IMG/VR virus record: IMGVR_UViG_3300042561_000031 | Location: 1 to 34,891 of that record | Source: a virus | Length of the DNA stretch: 34,891 nucleotides | Reading direction: 5' to 3' (one strand) | In this document: positions 3,027 to 24,893 of the stretch, piece by piece | Numbering within the stretch: the stretch's first letter is position 1 | How the letters are laid out: every line of letters starts with the position of its first letter | The notes under the pieces: generated by a model | What the model was told of the DNA's origin: nothing | Database searches by the model: none | The model's input: only the letters and a program-made list of their open reading frames with translations | Program-made: the position numbers and the translations under genes

Positions 3027-5092
3027 TAAGCCTTAAATTGTGTGTTGCTTGCCAAGACTGTAAATGTTGCACTACCTGTTTTTATCAAAAGATAGCGGTA
3101 ACTGTCTATTCCACTAGCATTTCCAGCAGTAGGCGCACCACCTAACCAACGTGTAGTCACACCAGATGTAGTGCCATCAACTTGCACAGCAGAATTGTAG
3201 TAAGCAGTAGAGCCTTGAGTAACCAAGAAAGCCACAGTCATTGATTGACCTGTACTCATCAAAGTATTCAATGATGTACCGCTAGAGCCTCTGAAATTAA
3301 CAGTCCAGTTAGCACTTGCGTTGCTTGTGTAGTACAGAACAGACTGAGTTGTAATGTCGTAAGCAATCGTGCCAGTAGCCGCAGTAGCTGATACTGTTGC
3401 TACTTCTGCTGCATCGTTTAAGACAATGGCGGTAGCAGATGAAGTTCCTGAGAATGTCTGTGTAGCCGTGAATGTCTGGGCAGAGTTTGTAACTGCCGTA
3501 TTAGCGTTATAGGCTTGTACGTTAGTACCGATTGCCAAACCTAAGTTAGTCCGAGCAGTAGCAGTATTAGATACATCAGATAGGTTGTTAGTATTAACTA
3601 AGAAACCACCTGCGGTAAAAGCCGCTTGTGACCAAGCCGATCCTGTCCACACATAAAGAGTGCTTACTGTTGTATTCCAGTACAAAGCACCCGTTAGGAG
3701 AGCATTGCCATCATTATCTACAGAAGGAGCAGAAGACTTAGAACCTAAGTATCTGTCATCAAAAGCATCGTATGAGGCTGCCGCATTGGTTTCGCTAGTA
3801 GCCGCATTGCTTGCACTTGTAGAAGCATTAGAAGCACTTGTAGATGCGTTTGAAGCACTTGTAGCCGCATTAGAAGCAGAAGTAGCCGCAGCAGTAGTTG
3901 AACCAAAAATCGAATCTATTTCAGTTTTGGTATAAGCATTTGTAATGTTATAGCCACCAATAGTCGTAGGATTCGTTCCTGCCGTTGCACGACCATAAGC
4001 ATCAAAAGTCACAGATTGGTAAGTGCCTGGCGTTACACCAGAAGTAGCCAAATCAATGTTGTCCGAATTGACAACAATACGACCTGAAGATGCAGTTCCT
4101 ACATTGAGAGTGTTACCTGTCTTTGTAAGACCATCACCCGCAGTAATCTGACCCGCACCTGAGAACTGCGCCCATGTGATAGATGTGCTTCCCAATGTCC
4201 CACCTGCATCAATCGTGCAGATAAAACCAGAGTCAGCGTTAGTTGTGCCTTTTTCAACAAAGGTAAAAGCCGCCACCAACTCAGCATAAGTGTCAGCATC
4301 TGTTGTGCGAGTCCAAGAACCAGAAGCACACAAATAAATACCATTTTGTGAGGCAGTAGATTGGTCTTTAACCAAGACCCGATCACCAGCAACAATCGAG
4401 ATGCCATCAATGGTTTGTGCGCCAGACAAAGTGATGTTTGCAGTAGTAGCTGCAACCACAGAGGCTTTTGCATCAATACCTTGGGCTAGTGCATCCACAT
4501 AACCCTTGGTAGCCGCATCAGAATCGTTTGTAGGGCTTGCCAAACCAGTAATGGTTGCCGATGTACTGCTATCCATGTCCAATGAGCCAGAGATGGTCAC
4601 ATTGTTGAATGTAGAAGTGCCAGAAGCCGCAGTGACATTGCCTGTCAGGTTGCCCGTTACGTTGCCTGTGACGTTGCCTGTAACTGCACCCGTTACATTG
4701 CCTGTTACGTTACCTGTGACCGCACCTGTCAATGGGCCACTAAAGCCTGTATTTGCCGTGATGTTTGTGCCAGTAATAGCAAGTGGAGATGAACCACCAA
4801 TTACCGCACCATTGATTGTTCCCGCACTAATAGCGGCAGAAGCAATCGTAGCGGCTGTGCTAACAGTAAGGTTAGTAAATGTTCCCGCTGCGGCAGTAGT
4901 TCCACCAATCACAGCACCATTGATCGTTCCACCAGTAATCGTGGCAGATGAGTTATCTGTCTTTGTTGCTATAGCAGTAGCAATATTATTGAACTCTGTA
5001 TCAATCTCAGTACCCTTAACAATTTTTAGAGGATTGCCAGGCGAGAGATTATCTTTGGTTGCAAAGTTAGTGGATTTTGAATAATTAGACAT
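3026..5092 (-). CDS. Tail fibre / tail appendage protein with low-complexity repeats
   Basis: 688 residues, ATG at 5092 behind an AGGAT ribosome site. The N-terminal STNFATKDNL...GTEIDTEFN segment is a common start for fibres attached to podovirus tails. Residues around 125-155 form a (V/L)TGN repeat (GNVTGAVTGN and similar). Residues around 390-440 form an alanine/serine heptad-like repeat (ATSASNAST), predicted to be a trimeric coiled rod. A beta-rich C-terminal half follows, with a TARTNLGLAIGT motif frequent in fibre tips. The gene sits directly after the tail nozzle gene. Fibre function is well supported by composition and place. Which fibre binds the receptor cannot be told from sequence. 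Confidence 0.8.
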   Translation of the reverse strand: MSNYSKSTNFATKDNLSPGNPLKIVKGTEIDTEFNNIATAIATKTDNSSATITGGTINGAVIGGTTAAAGTFTNLTVSTAATIASAAISAGTINGAVIGGSSPLAITGTNITANTGFSGPLTGAVTGNVTGNVTGAVTGNVTGNVTGNLTGNVTAASGTSTFNNVTISGSLDMDSSTSATITGLASPTNDSDAATKGYVDALAQGIDAKASVVAATTANITLSGAQTIDGISIVAGDRVLVKDQSTASQNGIYLCASGSWTRTTDADTYAELVAAFTFVEKGTTNADSGFICTIDAGGTLGSTSITWAQFSGAGQITAGDGLTKTGNTLNVGTASSGRIVVNSDNIDLATSGVTPGTYQSVTFDAYGRATAGTNPTTIGGYNITNAYTKTEIDSIFGSTTAAATSASNAATSASNASTSASNASTSASNAATSETNAAASYDAFDDRYLGSKSSAPSVDNDGNALLTGALYWNTTVSTLYVWTGSAWSQAAFTAGGFLVNTNNLSDVSNTATARTNLGLAIGTNVQAYNANTAVTNSAQTFTATQTFSGTSSATAIVLNDAAEVATVSATAATGTIAYDITTQSVLYYTSNASANWTVNFRGSSGTSLNTLMSTGQSMTVAFLVTQGSTAYYNSAVQVDGTTSGVTTRWLGGAPTAGNASGIDSYRYLLIKTGSATFTVLASNTQFKA
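3790..3895. repeat. Tandem repeats encoding SASNAST-type rod
   Basis: Imperfect tandem units built on a gcacttgtag/gaagcatta-like pattern encode the seven-residue (S/T)SASNA repeat in the fibre protein. Such repeats can vary in copy number by slippage. Confidence 0.7.
4631..4732. repeat. 12-base tandem repeats encoding (V/A)TGN units
   Basis: About eight near-identical 12-base units (variants of gttgcctgtgac on the plus strand) encode the TGNV/TGAV run of the fibre protein. The unit stays a multiple of three, so copy-number change would keep the frame. Confidence 0.75.
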
Positions 5093-20070: not shown

Positions 20071-20495
20071 TCCAAACACTCCTTAACGCAAATATCAACA
20101 CCTGGCAGACTCGAATAAACCTTGGTAACGTGGATGTTTATGATCTGCGAGTCGTCATGGTAAACAACCCCATTCATGCCATCTTCTACGCTTTTGAGGA
20201 TATTACTTGCGTCAGGCTTCTTTGTTGGCTTCTCTGACCCGTTATCAATGGCTTCTAACCGCTTTTTGGTGCATGACTTAGGGATTGGCACTCGAATGTA
20301 AAGATAAAGGCTAACAGGGGTTTCCAATGGTTCAGAAGCACCCATTGCCTCGATTGCAGAATCCCTGATTAAAGTCTCATAGGTTCTAGTTTTCTCAGGG
20401 GTGTAAGTTTGCACAAAGTTTCCCCTCTTGACGTATCTAGCCCTTTGTTTGCCAACAGGGTTAGCGTCTACTTTGAATGTCACCATAAATGTCAT
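20067..20495 (-). CDS. rusA: RusA-family Holliday junction resolvase
   Basis: 142 residues from ATG 20495, overlapping the methyltransferase stop as ATGA; upstream in-frame codons lie inside that gene. NPVGKQRARYVKRG and TPEKTRTYETLIRD are the conserved N-terminal segments. The catalytic acidic cluster shows as KKPDASNILKSVEDGMNG with YHDDSQI (Asp of KPD, Asp of VEDGM, Asp pair of HDD). The family cuts four-way junctions. Here it would resolve recombination intermediates and debranch DNA before packaging, together with the Sak3-like protein and Ref. Confidence 0.9.
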   Translation of the reverse strand: MTFMVTFKVDANPVGKQRARYVKRGNFVQTYTPEKTRTYETLIRDSAIEAMGASEPLETPVSLYLYIRVPIPKSCTKKRLEAIDNGSEKPTKKPDASNILKSVEDGMNGVVYHDDSQIINIHVTKVYSSLPGVDICVKECLE

Positions 20496-21706
20496 TTGAT
20501 TAAATCCTGAACTTTTTGTATCTTTTGTCCGATCCAATTCATAACAGGGACTGCCATGCTATTGCCTAATGCTTTGTATCTTGGGCCATCAGGGGTTTGC
20601 TTACCCTTGGGTTTGATGTTGGTGTAATTGTCTGGAAACCCTTGGAGTCTCTCGCACTCTACACAAGTCAATCTCCTGACTGCAATCTTCTGAGCAACAA
20701 AAGTCTGTGCATGATGGGATTGTGGGCTTGGTTGTAGTGCTTTTAATGCATTCGCAACCTCTAGTTCTGTCGCACTAAAGGTGTTTGCCTTTGCGTCTTC
20801 TCGGATCGAATAAGCTGACAAATGCTCCATTGATTGCACTATTGCAGGAGGATGAGCTCCTGCCGCCAATGGATGGCATGGATCACCTGATTTTGGATTA
20901 TTACCATTTTGTGGACTCGTAATTTGAGTTGTATCAAATGGGATTGGTTGGGCAATAAGGTCTGTTGCATCTTTCCAATCTCTAGCCTTCATTGCACTTG
21001 CCGTGCCATCGATTTGATATTCACCAAAAGCAGTCATTCTGGCGGCAATAGGTGTTTCTACAAACCATTGATCTTCGCAGTTGAATCCGACACGACTGAC
21101 TCCAGTGCCGCTTGAAGAGAGGGTGGGAGTGACTTTCCTCGCTTCTCTGCTCGGTTTAGTATGCCCTGACAAGCTCTCCCGCTCAAAAAGAACCGCTGCG
21201 GCAGGTCGCCAGTCTCCAAGATATCCGATAACGAACACACGTTTGCGTCTTTGGGCCACTCCGAAGTACTGAGCGTCAAGCACCCTGTATGCGAACCCAT
21301 ACCCGCAGATTGCCAACCCTCCGAGGAAGCTACCAAAGTCCCGTCCATCAGCGGAGGACAAAACGCCGGGGACATTCTCCCAGACCAGCCAACGGGGGCG
21401 ATATTGTTTAGCAATGGCAAGATAGGTAAGCATGAGGTTACCACGAGGGTCATCCAATCCTTTTCTGAGTCCTGCGACTGAGAATGATTGACAGGGAGTT
21501 CCTCCAACGAAAACATCGAAATTTGATTCAATTTGCCACTCCTTAAATTTTGTCATGTCGCCCAAATTGGGGACTGTTGGATAATGATGTTTCAACACTT
21601 GGCTCGGAAAAGACTCGATTTCTGAGAATCCAACAGGATTCCAACCTAGAGGATGCCAAGCAACTGTTGCTGCCTCTATCCCACTACATACCGATAAATA
21701 GTTCAT
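20492..21706 (-). CDS. C5 cytosine-specific DNA methyltransferase
   Basis: 404 residues with the ordered motifs of the family. Motif I is SVCSGIEAATVAWHPLGW, with GFSEIE following. Motif IV is GGTPCQSFSVAG with catalytic Cys. ENVPGVLSS is motif VI. AQRRKRVFVIGY is motif VIII. ECERLQGFPDNYT plus ALGNSMAVPVMNWIG form motifs IX-X. It makes 5-methylcytosine, most likely to protect phage DNA from restriction. The region from about residue 170 to 330 is the variable target-recognition part. No cognate endonuclease is nearby, so it is an orphan enzyme. It contains an overprinted frame (21058-21531). Confidence 0.95.
   Translation of the reverse strand: MNYLSVCSGIEAATVAWHPLGWNPVGFSEIESFPSQVLKHHYPTVPNLGDMTKFKEWQIESNFDVFVGGTPCQSFSVAGLRKGLDDPRGNLMLTYLAIAKQYRPRWLVWENVPGVLSSADGRDFGSFLGGLAICGYGFAYRVLDAQYFGVAQRRKRVFVIGYLGDWRPAAAVLFERESLSGHTKPSREARKVTPTLSSSGTGVSRVGFNCEDQWFVETPIAARMTAFGEYQIDGTASAMKARDWKDATDLIAQPIPFDTTQITSPQNGNNPKSGDPCHPLAAGAHPPAIVQSMEHLSAYSIREDAKANTFSATELEVANALKALQPSPQSHHAQTFVAQKIAVRRLTCVECERLQGFPDNYTNIKPKGKQTPDGPRYKALGNSMAVPVMNWIGQKIQKVQDLIK
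21058..21531 (-). CDS. Overprinted protein in a second frame of the methyltransferase gene
   Basis: A 157-codon frame on the same strand as the methyltransferase but shifted, starting TTG 21531 (MNQISMFSLEELPVN) or ATG 21516. The C-terminal part looks like a real domain: VCSLSDILETGDLPQRFFLS followed by RACQGILNRAEKRGKSLP, helical with an ordered charge pattern. I recall near-identical C-terminal motifs (LSDILETG, QRFFLS, GILRRAEKRGK) in proteins annotated beside or inside dcm-like genes of many phages, which suggests conserved overprinting. The N-terminal part mirrors the methyltransferase motif IV codons, so it alone proves nothing. Function unknown. Confidence 0.55.
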   Translation of the reverse strand: MNQISMFSLEELPVNHSQSQDSEKDWMTLVVTSCLPILPLLNNIAPVGWSGRMSPAFCPPLMDGTLVASSEGWQSAGMGSHTGCLTLSTSEWPKDANVCSLSDILETGDLPQRFFLSGRACQGILNRAEKRGKSLPPSLQAALESVVSDSTAKINGL

Positions 21707-22867: not shown

Positions 22868-23230
22868 TCAAATAAATTGATTATTTGTGATTTCGTTTGT
22901 TGGTTTTCTGCCAAACAAACGAACAGCTTGGGCGTTCATAGAAGCATATTCAGACTTAGTGAAGATGCCTTTTGCGTTTCTGATGTCAAACGGGTTTAGC
23001 AGATCACGAGGCTCTTCAACCTTCTCAGCCTCAATCATATGCGGCTCTAACGTGTACTGAGAAACCCAAGAACGACCTAGCTTAATTTTCCCAATTTTTA
23101 ATTTCTTCTTGTAGCTCATCTTGGTGCAACAAGCTGCAATAGATAGTCTGGGTATGCCTGTCAAGTCTTCTATTTGATAGGAAGTAAGTGGGCCGTTTTG
23201 TAATGCTCTGATAACTGCTTCTTGGGTCAT
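22868..23230 (-). CDS. Winged-helix DNA-binding protein
   Basis: 120 residues from ATG 23230, which overlaps the stop of the gene before it (ATGA). MTQEAVIRALQNGPLTSYQI, then EDLTGIPRLSIAACCTKMSY forms a winged-helix/HTH with recognition helix near residues 28-40. The wing is rich in Lys/Arg (KKLKIGKIKLGRSWV). The C-terminal half (NPFDIRNAKGIFTKSEYASM, VRLFGRKPTNE) resembles small phage proteins of unknown role. Could be a transcription regulator binding the GGGTTNNCCC sites, or a replication-origin binder. Its gene is directly upstream of the small RNA. Confidence 0.7.
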   Translation of the reverse strand: MTQEAVIRALQNGPLTSYQIEDLTGIPRLSIAACCTKMSYKKKLKIGKIKLGRSWVSQYTLEPHMIEAEKVEEPRDLLNPFDIRNAKGIFTKSEYASMNAQAVRLFGRKPTNEITNNQFI

Positions 23231-23406
23231 TGGTAAAGTTCCTGAATGTTGATGGGGCGGTTTATGTGGTTTTCTAGTGTTCTGCAAAGCAAAGCGGTCA
23301 CTGCGGCATTGAAGTCCTCTGGTTCGGTTACATAAGCATTAGCCATTGTGATTGCGTAATCAAGCAATGTTTCTGCACAAGTTTGTTCAATTTGTTCGAT
23401 GTTCAT
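23227..23406 (-). CDS. 59-aa hypothetical protein
   Basis: ATG 23406, stop at 23227-23229 overlapping the next ATG. Product MNIEQIEQTCAETLLDYAIT ... NIQELYQ is helical and mildly acidic. Coupling to the winged-helix gene and its place as first leftward gene from the divergent region support it. The ribosome site is weak. No family recognised. Confidence 0.55.
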   Translation of the reverse strand: MNIEQIEQTCAETLLDYAITMANAYVTEPEDFNAAVTALLCRTLENHINRPINIQELYQ

Positions 23407-23432
23407 GTGAGTAGCCTAGCATGATAAAAAAG

Positions 23433-23461
23433 TTGCGTAAATACGGGAAAACCCCTATGTA
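23433..23461 (+). promoter_or_regulatory. Weak candidate promoter with operator in its spacer
   Basis: TTGCGT (23433-23438), 17 bases, TATGTA (23456-23461). The spacer contains CGGGAAAACCCC (23444-23455), whose core is the reverse of the GGGTTTTCCC palindrome at 15440-15449. A repressor bound there would block this promoter. Confidence 0.4.
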
Positions 23462-23490
23462 AATTCTGGAATCTGTATGGCACATTAGAG

Positions 23491-23585
23491 GTGTTGAGCA
23501 ACTTTAGGGCTTGAAGTCCATCAAGCTAAACAGTTGCAATGCCATCGAAACTTGCGCTCAACACGATAGATTGCATCTAGCGCAA
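23491..23585 (+). ncRNA. Compact pseudoknotted RNA element in the 5' leader
   Basis: P1: GTGTTGA 23491-23497 with TCAACAC 23558-23564. P2 starts at the next base: GCAAC 23498-23502 with GTTGC 23533-23537, TTTA 23503-23506 with TAAA 23527-23530, GCTTGA 23509-23514 with TCAAGC 23521-23526. P3: TTGCGC 23552-23557 with GCGCAA 23580-23585. P4: TAGAT 23567-23571 with ATCTA 23575-23579. P1 and P3 interlock as an H-type pseudoknot and the helices abut with no spare bases. P1 can extend to nine pairs (GTGTTGAGC/GCTCAACAC) only by breaking the ends of P2 and P3, a possible switch. It ends 53 bases before the ATG at 23639. All pairs are Watson-Crick, so the strand is inferred from the downstream gene. 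Confidence 0.6.
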
Positions 23586-23638
23586 AGCAGGGACGAATTG
23601 CAAAAACGGACACTTTTAATAATTTAACAGGACTAAAT

Positions 23639-23839
23639 ATGCCGATTCTTAATGGAAAAAAGGTTGTAGACCTAGAAGTAGATGGAGTAGATAGCAGAGA
23701 CTTCCCAGACTTTGCTGATGCCTATTTTTCAAGTGGATGCTATGAAGATGGAACACCACTAACAGAAGATGAGTTAAACAAACTTACCGATCTGGCGGGT
23801 GATGTTCTGTGGACAATGGCTTATGAGAGTTTCCACTAA
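23639..23839 (+). CDS. 66-aa acidic hypothetical protein
   Basis: MPILNGKKVVDLEVDGVDSR, then DFPDFADAYFSSGCYEDGTP and a helix ELNKLTDLAGDVLWTMAYES. Acidic and soluble. AACAGGACTAAAT precedes the ATG. First gene of the second rightward cluster, directly behind the pseudoknotted leader, so it would be the gene most affected by that RNA. The pattern GTPLTEDELNKL...L recurs in small phage proteins of unknown function. Confidence 0.65.
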   Translation: MPILNGKKVVDLEVDGVDSRDFPDFADAYFSSGCYEDGTPLTEDELNKLTDLAGDVLWTMAYESFH

Positions 23840-24027
23840 TGAAAACACTATTTCAATTCTTTGTGGAAGAGTTCTCAGACATCCACTACTGCCCTTATTG
23901 TTTAGAAATCAAGGGGGATAAAATAGTTTGTTGCCAGGAAGCAGACTTTACTAAGTTCAAGGATTTATATATTGAACAACAAAAAGAAATTATCAATGCT
24001 GAATTAGATGAAAATCAAAGGAGTTAA
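23839..24027 (+). CDS. 62-aa zinc-ribbon-like protein
   Basis: MKTLFQFFVEEFSDIHYCPY with CPYC at residues 18-21, followed by VCCQEADF about ten residues on. The CxxC...CC layout suggests one zinc site. A helical KDLYIEQQKEIINAEL tail follows. The start overlaps the preceding TAA by one base. Function unknown. Confidence 0.55.
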   Translation: MKTLFQFFVEEFSDIHYCPYCLEIKGDKIVCCQEADFTKFKDLYIEQQKEIINAELDENQRS

Positions 24028-24028
24028 T

Positions 24029-24637
24029 ATGTCAATAGAAGCGTTACTGAAAAAAGATGTCAATTCTCATACAGAGAAGAAAAACAACCTGACCTACCTG
24101 TCATGGGCTTGGGCATGGGCAGAAGCTCTTAAAGCTGATCCTACCGCCACCTACAAAGTAGAGATGTTTGGCGACAAGTGTTTCATGGACATAAATGGTA
24201 CGGCAATGGTGTTCGTTACCGCTACCATGTTTGGCAAACCAATGACCTGTCAATTGCCTGTGATGGACTACAGAAACAAGGCCATCCCTACTCCCGATGC
24301 GTTTGCGGTAAACACTGCCATCATGCGTTGCATGACAAAGGCTTTGAGTCTGCATGGCTTGGGTCTATACATCTATGCGGGTGAAGATTTACCTGAAGAG
24401 GGCAGATCAGTGGTGATTACACCTACTCAAGGCGCACAAGATAATATTCCTCCAGAGGAATTACAGTACTTGCAAGAGATGGCAGTTGAATTGATTGCTA
24501 CCTGTGAGCAAGGTGATCCAAGGGCAGCTTGGGTTAAGTTAGAGGGAGAGAACCTAGACGATCAACAAAAGATTGCTCTGTGGACACTCCTACCTAGTAA
24601 AGTGCGTTCAGCTTTGAAAAAGGCTAAGGAAATTTAA
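24029..24637 (+). CDS. Sak3-like single-strand annealing protein (DUF1071)
   Basis: 202 residues from ATG 24029 with AAAGGAGTTAAT upstream; an in-frame ATG at 24008 lies inside the previous gene. NNLTYLSWAWAWAEALKADP, then CQLPVMDYRNKAIPTPDAF and AIMRCMTKALSLHGLGLYIY are the signature segments of the DUF1071/Sak3 family. The family anneals complementary strands in RecA-independent recombination, like lambda Bet or Rad52. The C-terminal tail is acidic and divergent. With RusA and Ref it forms the phage recombination set. The usual exonuclease partner is absent. The next gene may supply a DNA-binding partner. Confidence 0.9.
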   Translation: MSIEALLKKDVNSHTEKKNNLTYLSWAWAWAEALKADPTATYKVEMFGDKCFMDINGTAMVFVTATMFGKPMTCQLPVMDYRNKAIPTPDAFAVNTAIMRCMTKALSLHGLGLYIYAGEDLPEEGRSVVITPTQGAQDNIPPEELQYLQEMAVELIATCEQGDPRAAWVKLEGENLDDQQKIALWTLLPSKVRSALKKAKEI

Positions 24638-24638
24638 T

Positions 24639-24893
24639 ATGGACAATAAACAAAATCAGCGGGATAACAGTGGTGTACTTTTCAAATCCGACAAAATTGA
24701 AAACGAAAGGTCGCCTCAGTACAAAGGAAATATTACAGTAGATGGCAAAGACTACTGGATTTCTGCTTGGATCAAAGAAGGAAAGTCAGGCAAGTTTATG
24801 GGCTTGGCAGTATCTCCTAAAGAAGAATACAAACCAAAGCCTTCTGAGCGTTCTAAAACAACAGGGTTTGATGACGAAACAATGCCCTTTTGA
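24639..24893 (+). CDS. 84-aa conserved phage protein downstream of the annealing gene
   Basis: MDNKQNQRDNSGVLFKSDKI, then VDGKDYWISAWIKEGKSGKF and LAVSPKEEYKPK, ending DDETMPF. The acidic C-terminal -DDETMPF resembles the tail of single-strand DNA binding proteins, and the central WISAWIKEGKSGKFMGL strand pattern occurs in small phage DNA-metabolism proteins. It may act as an SSB-like or partner protein of the annealing protein, which is inferred from place and tail. Confidence 0.65.
   Translation: MDNKQNQRDNSGVLFKSDKIENERSPQYKGNITVDGKDYWISAWIKEGKSGKFMGLAVSPKEEYKPKPSERSKTTGFDDETMPF

Follow-up and report, generated by a model that had tools for sequence, protein, structure and literature searches.

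The leader of a phage recombination operon

We analysed a 34,891-nt stretch of viral DNA, IMG/VR record IMGVR_UViG_3300042561_000031 (hereafter the window), in which a DNA-recombination operon of about 1.9 kb runs rightward from position 23639 and is followed by convergent genes. The first gene (23639–23839, plus strand) encodes a 66-aa protein that has no PHROG or Pfam match, and the second (23839–24027, plus strand), which overlaps it at TAATG, a Cys-rich protein of 62 aa. Next on the same strand come a gene for a Sak-like ssDNA annealing protein (24029–24637; phrog_659, E = 2.2e-47) and, as the fourth gene, one for an 84-aa ssDNA-binding protein, SSB (24639–24893; phrog_18154, E = 8.8e-13). 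Translation of these genes may be coupled, as suggested by reading frames that overlap or abut. Further upstream, positions 20492–21706 of the minus strand encode a C-5 cytosine-specific DNA methylase (PF00145).

A conserved motif, TGGCACATTA (23478–23487, plus strand), lies directly 5' of a knotted RNA of about 120 bases (approximately 23491 to 23612, plus strand), which stands at the head of the operon message and is found in dozens of uncultured phages. The preliminary description of this locus had proposed a compact, interlocked RNA before the annealing-protein operon, and homologues and covariation (see below) bear this out. Its limits, originally drawn at 23491–23585, were reset by comparison of the homologues: the conserved element extends to about 23612, since both helix P5 (to 23603) and the GTCC/GGAC complementarity (to 23611) belong to it. 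Between the RNA and the start codon lies an A/U-rich spacer (23612–23638, plus strand) containing a Shine-Dalgarno-like AGGAC at 23629–23633; nearly all relatives have AGGAG at the same site, and the AGGAC of the window may reflect a sequencing error or a change that weakens the site. Across the 50 members of the family described below, the spacer has a mean GC content of 25% and is weakly folded.

Homologues of the leader RNA

Relatives of both the 66-aa gene and the Sak gene are numerous among viral contigs, and the leaders of some ten such relatives hold sequence homologous to the leader of the window. Scanning the viral contigs with two independent patterns of conserved blocks gave nearly identical sets of contigs. 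With chance matches removed and later finds added, the family comprises 50 distinct copies, the window's own included; the other copies are 68–98% identical to it. Patterns that left other parts of the element free yielded only one new true member, L478, while a scan of a genome collection with a 16-base pattern proved too loose, the matches examined among those listed being due to chance. All 50 copies lie on the sense strand, 24–35 nt 5' of an ATG. The RNA is present in 17 of 28 phage records, as a single copy in each except for one 68-kb contig (IMGVR_UViG_3300043446_000617), where two differing copies, L183 and L188, are separated by 33.7 kb, as though the contig joined the genomes of two related phages.

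A pseudoknotted fold supported by covariation

Structure and covariation were assessed on an alignment of 38 long-form homologues. Helix P1 is formed by nine pairs between GTGTTGAGC (23491–23499) and GCTCAACAC (23556–23564), all helices being on the plus strand; 93.9% of its alignment cells are paired, and seven of the nine pairs have changed on both sides. It encloses the P2 hairpin GCTTGA-AGTCCA-TCAAGC (23509–23526; arms 23509–23514 and 23521–23526, loop AGTCCA), which contains the invariant core GAAGTCCATC. P2 is paired in 96.5% of cells and has double changes at three pairs, one of which is C-G or U-A in a ratio of 19:19. P5 and P3 likewise have their 5' strands within P1, so that the nested stem P5-P3-P4 crosses P1. 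P5 consists of seven pairs between TTGCAAT (23534–23540) and ATTGCAA (23597–23603), paired in every cell; it is near-invariant and yet has two clean double changes, each at a different pair (TTGTAAT/ATTACAA in L478, CTGCAAT/ATTGCAG in L225, L226 and L228), with a G-U intermediate in L033, L171 and L222. P3, between CTTGC (23551–23555) and GCAGG (23587–23591), adjoins P1 at 23555/23556; it is paired in 94.2% of cells, showing a G-C/A-U exchange and a last pair of multiple types. The terminal hairpin P4, TAGAT-TGC-ATCTA (23567–23579; arms 23567–23571 and 23575–23579), varies in length, which opens gaps in the alignment and accompanies its lower pairing of 70.8%; double changes are found at all five pairs. 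A natural short form of the RNA (for example L112, L166, L205 and L217) has no GCCATCGAAA/GACGA internal loop but retains P1, P2, P5 and a re-paired P3.

Over the whole alignment, 93.6% of cells are paired and a double change is seen at 19 of 36 pairs. Covariation scores 0.274 as compared to 0.135 in shuffled alignments; none of 500 shuffles reached 0.274, a count that does not amount to a probability, as the aligned sequences are kin. Sliding the partners by 1–3 columns reduced pairing to 33–41%, and it is on this control and on the independent compensations, rather than on the shuffle count, that the weight of the covariation argument rests. Taken alone, the 121-nt sequence of the window folds no better than chance would allow (z = -1.4; 17 of 200 shuffles fold equally well). 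Comparison of the homologues provides strong evidence for a new phage RNA fold, and indicates that the structure was kept through evolution while the sequence and the downstream genes diverged.

A further contact may complete the fold. GUCC in the loop of P2 (23516–23519, plus strand) is complementary to GGAC at the 3' end of the conserved element (23608–23611, plus strand), and a candidate tertiary pairing between them would tie these two regions together. The two are invariant in 49 of 49 aligned sequences, which puts this pairing beyond the reach of covariation; both are retained in every complete member recovered with a pattern that required neither.

The homologues also revise the architecture given in the preliminary description, which comprised four helices. 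All four complementary pairs of arms are present in the sequence at the coordinates given there, and P1, with its nine pairs, and P4, a genuine though variable hairpin, were kept in relatives. The arms assigned to P2 and P3 were not: the former P2 (GCAACT/AGTTGC) has no double-changed pair and is paired in 76% of cells, its 3' arm being that of P5, and the former P3 (TTGCGC/GCGCAA), paired in 68.5%, is replaced by the CTTGC/GCAGG helix. The GCTTGA/TCAAGC hairpin, P5 and the GTCC/GGAC complementarity had been overlooked. A longer P1 had been suggested to compete with P2 and P3 as in an RNA switch; the nine-pair P1 coexists with the other helices.

The RNA is retained while the operon behind it changes

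Across the 50 copies, the RNA is followed by five unrelated first genes. The operons behind it differ as well: Sak in the window, Erf-like annealing proteins in L204 and L192, phrog_862 together with a Gam-like protein in L207, and an exonuclease with a different SSB family in L168. This distribution would be consistent with control of an entire, translationally coupled operon irrespective of the gene that comes first, and the pairing of one leader with unrelated recombination proteins would mean that regulation is separated from the regulated genes.

This variety bears directly on the suggestion, made in the preliminary description, of a T4 gene 32-like translational operator. In such an autogenous scheme the operon's SSB or annealing protein would bind the pseudoknot, spread over the A/U-rich ribosome-binding site and shut the operon off. 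In T4 and RB69, the gene 32 operator is a pseudoknot that stands immediately before an A/U-rich, unstructured ribosome-binding site (PMC535899), and our comparative prediction likewise places a phage leader pseudoknot before an A/U-rich, unstructured initiation region with genes for single-strand DNA proteins downstream; the window operon, with its overlapping or abutting genes, encodes both Sak and an SSB. The gene 32 operator is thus the best mechanistic analogy. The T4 pseudoknot, however, measures about 28 nt and is tied to gene 32, whereas the RNA of the window has about 120 nt and five helices and is kept while the first gene, the annealing protein and the SSB all change. Moreover, in the window the SSB gene is only the fourth, and the RNA is absent from close relatives that share its Sak and 66-aa genes. 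Since the RNA is not linked to one protein or SSB gene, it does not belong to the gene 32 type, and we regard a gene-specific autogenous operator as unlikely.

A short hairpin occupies the same slot in close relatives

The window and contig L004 are 93% identical over 22870–23487 and 94% identical over 23624–24603 of the window; between these flanks the window carries the RNA and L004 a 28-nt hairpin leader. Given near-identical flanks around differing leaders, the leader behaves as an exchangeable cassette. A first survey found the upstream motif before 76 distinct short-hairpin leaders (GTGTGGGC...CCCAC) and 50 RNA leaders, both counts referring to distinct stretches with their flanks included; a last scan, for the motif with GGYGTTRG, recovered RNA leaders only, plus four chance matches. 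Eleven of the 28 phage records are without the RNA, and eight of these have one copy of the motif, in the short-hairpin form. There is one leader per genome, the 68-kb contig having two. The RNA is evidently dispensable for phages that have the simple hairpin. The hairpin, at 2566–2592 of L004 and in relatives, occurs in variants such as GATGTGG...CCACAT and GTGGGC...GTCCAC, and appears to be a conserved hairpin in its own right.

The exchange also bears on a possible role in transcription like that of the put element of phage HK022, a nascent-RNA antiterminator or antipausing element that here would ride RNA polymerase through the early operon. putL, whose action on RNA polymerase is in cis, is situated a short way downstream of an early promoter; put RNAs have about 70 nt and two stem-loops, and occur in two copies per genome, downstream of early promoters (PMC9378689). 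Like put, the present RNA is apparently promoter-proximal in early operons and indifferent to the genes downstream, and its loops are highly conserved. Unlike put, it is pseudoknotted with five helices, is found as a single copy per genome, precedes a short operon (about 1.9 kb) that ends ahead of convergent genes, and interchanges with a 28-nt hairpin leader. We give little credence to a put-like function.

Comparison with known RNA classes

The preliminary description could match the element to no known class, and a search with the covariance models of Rfam 15 at the gathering score agrees: the window has no match to any family. Permissive Rfam searches returned chance-level matches only, both for the leader (E up to 10) and for the divergent member L213 (E up to 5). 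Neither the fold nor the family turned up in Rfam 15 or in the literature searched. Structured leader RNAs as such are a known kind; the element may also figure in a large list of predicted viral RNAs that has reportedly been published, without description there. Among named phages and plasmids, BLAST found no homologue of the RNA, and the 66-aa gene has no relative among named phages. Among named genomes, the annealing-protein gene has its nearest relative in a circular phage genome from Manatee Spring, which is without the RNA, and there is no such RNA in the closest named phage either, MW202710.1, whose operon is related. In the latter (L494), the protein of a DNA region at 3502–4128 that resembles the window's Sak gene is annotated as an 'exonuclease', and is probably a misannotated annealing protein.

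Compact pseudoknotting, invariant loop and junction nucleotides and independence from the first gene would all suit a small-molecule riboswitch. Against this, no Rfam riboswitch matches, the downstream genes are non-metabolic, the conserved internal loop is absent from the natural short form, and our search for an alternative fold that would hide the ribosome-binding site or form a terminator found none; the leader has no terminator-like site. Nor was the RNA found in 399 sampled Burkholderiales genomes, where there was one chance match only and a control pattern matched too, a result that says little, as the phage host may lie outside this sample. A riboswitch therefore seems improbable to us.

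Interlocked pseudoknots and invariant nucleotides would also fit a self-cleaving ribozyme that trims the 5' end of the mRNA, or a stable trans-acting RNA. In HDV-like ribozymes P1 interlocks with a second stem bearing a terminal hairpin, as it does here; the order of helices differs, the HDV-like hairpin following the 5' strand of the second stem whereas the P2 hairpin of the window precedes it. Known ribozyme families, HDV-like ones in Rfam included, give no match, and the RNA is always placed tightly before a start codon; we consider either of these roles very improbable. A pseudoknot ahead of a translationally coupled operon is likewise found in ribosomal-protein leaders of the alpha operon type, but the present operons have no ribosomal protein gene and the RNA no defined protein ligand.

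A cis-acting leader as the preferred interpretation

A conserved fold that keeps a fixed position within operon leaders makes the element, by the comparative evidence, a candidate structured cis-regulatory leader RNA; the rival readings (gene-specific operator, antiterminator, riboswitch, ribozyme) are all less supported. With moderate confidence, we propose that it represents a new class of structured 5' leader that acts in cis and governs either the translation of a coupled early operon or its stability. The RNA would fold on the nascent mRNA, at its 5' end or close to it, and there set ribosome loading, 5'-end stability or both. That it acts in cis after transcription is suggested by the distance to the start codon, which is kept while the genes change, and by the simple hairpin that fills the slot on the same 5' segment; a role at the level of transcription would give an identical genomic pattern. 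As the hairpin of close relatives is built on that very segment, a 5'-proximal structure would be the shared minimal function, to which the long RNA may add regulation by a further factor, either protein or small molecule.

More tentatively, and with somewhat less than even confidence, the elements may be drawn together as a new RNA class in which a P1/P5-P3 pseudoknot is closed by the loop-to-tail GUCC/GGAC contact, and which phages swap as a cassette against the simple hairpin, recombination operons of differing types thereby being regulated via a common trans factor. If this is true, the leader and not the genes carries the control of recombination operons. The RNA offers a target of about 120 nt with natural variants and RNA-less alleles, and so a handle on the control of such operons, for which the paired RNA and hairpin alleles with near-identical flanks are a ready control.

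As to how the ribosome-binding site might be reached, the joining segment J12 (23500–23506) is often pyrimidine-rich and has some complementarity to the Shine-Dalgarno sequence (ACUCU, UCCUU). Masking of the Shine-Dalgarno sequence by J12 scored a mean percentile of 0.32 over 44 distinct pairs and was not adopted, since the complementarity, weak where present, is missing in divergent members; a conserved expression platform was thus not found.

The region upstream of the RNA

The motif 5' of the RNA, in the general form TGGCAYATTA, precedes most RNA copies, the L168/L204/L207/L213 group excepted, and also precedes the short-hairpin leaders. Records with the motif have a single copy of it per genome, apart from the joined 68-kb contig, which has two. 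We regard it as a candidate promoter part or as the 5'-most transcribed segment. A reading of TGGCAC as a sigma-54 promoter was dropped: by eye there is no GC at -12, and the start would fall inside P1. Further 5', at 23432–23462, possible -35 and -10 boxes flank a AGGGAAAACCCCTA-like palindrome. A palindrome of other sequence (AGGGTTTATCCCTA) is kept there in relatives, and it resembles an operator in a divergent promoter region.
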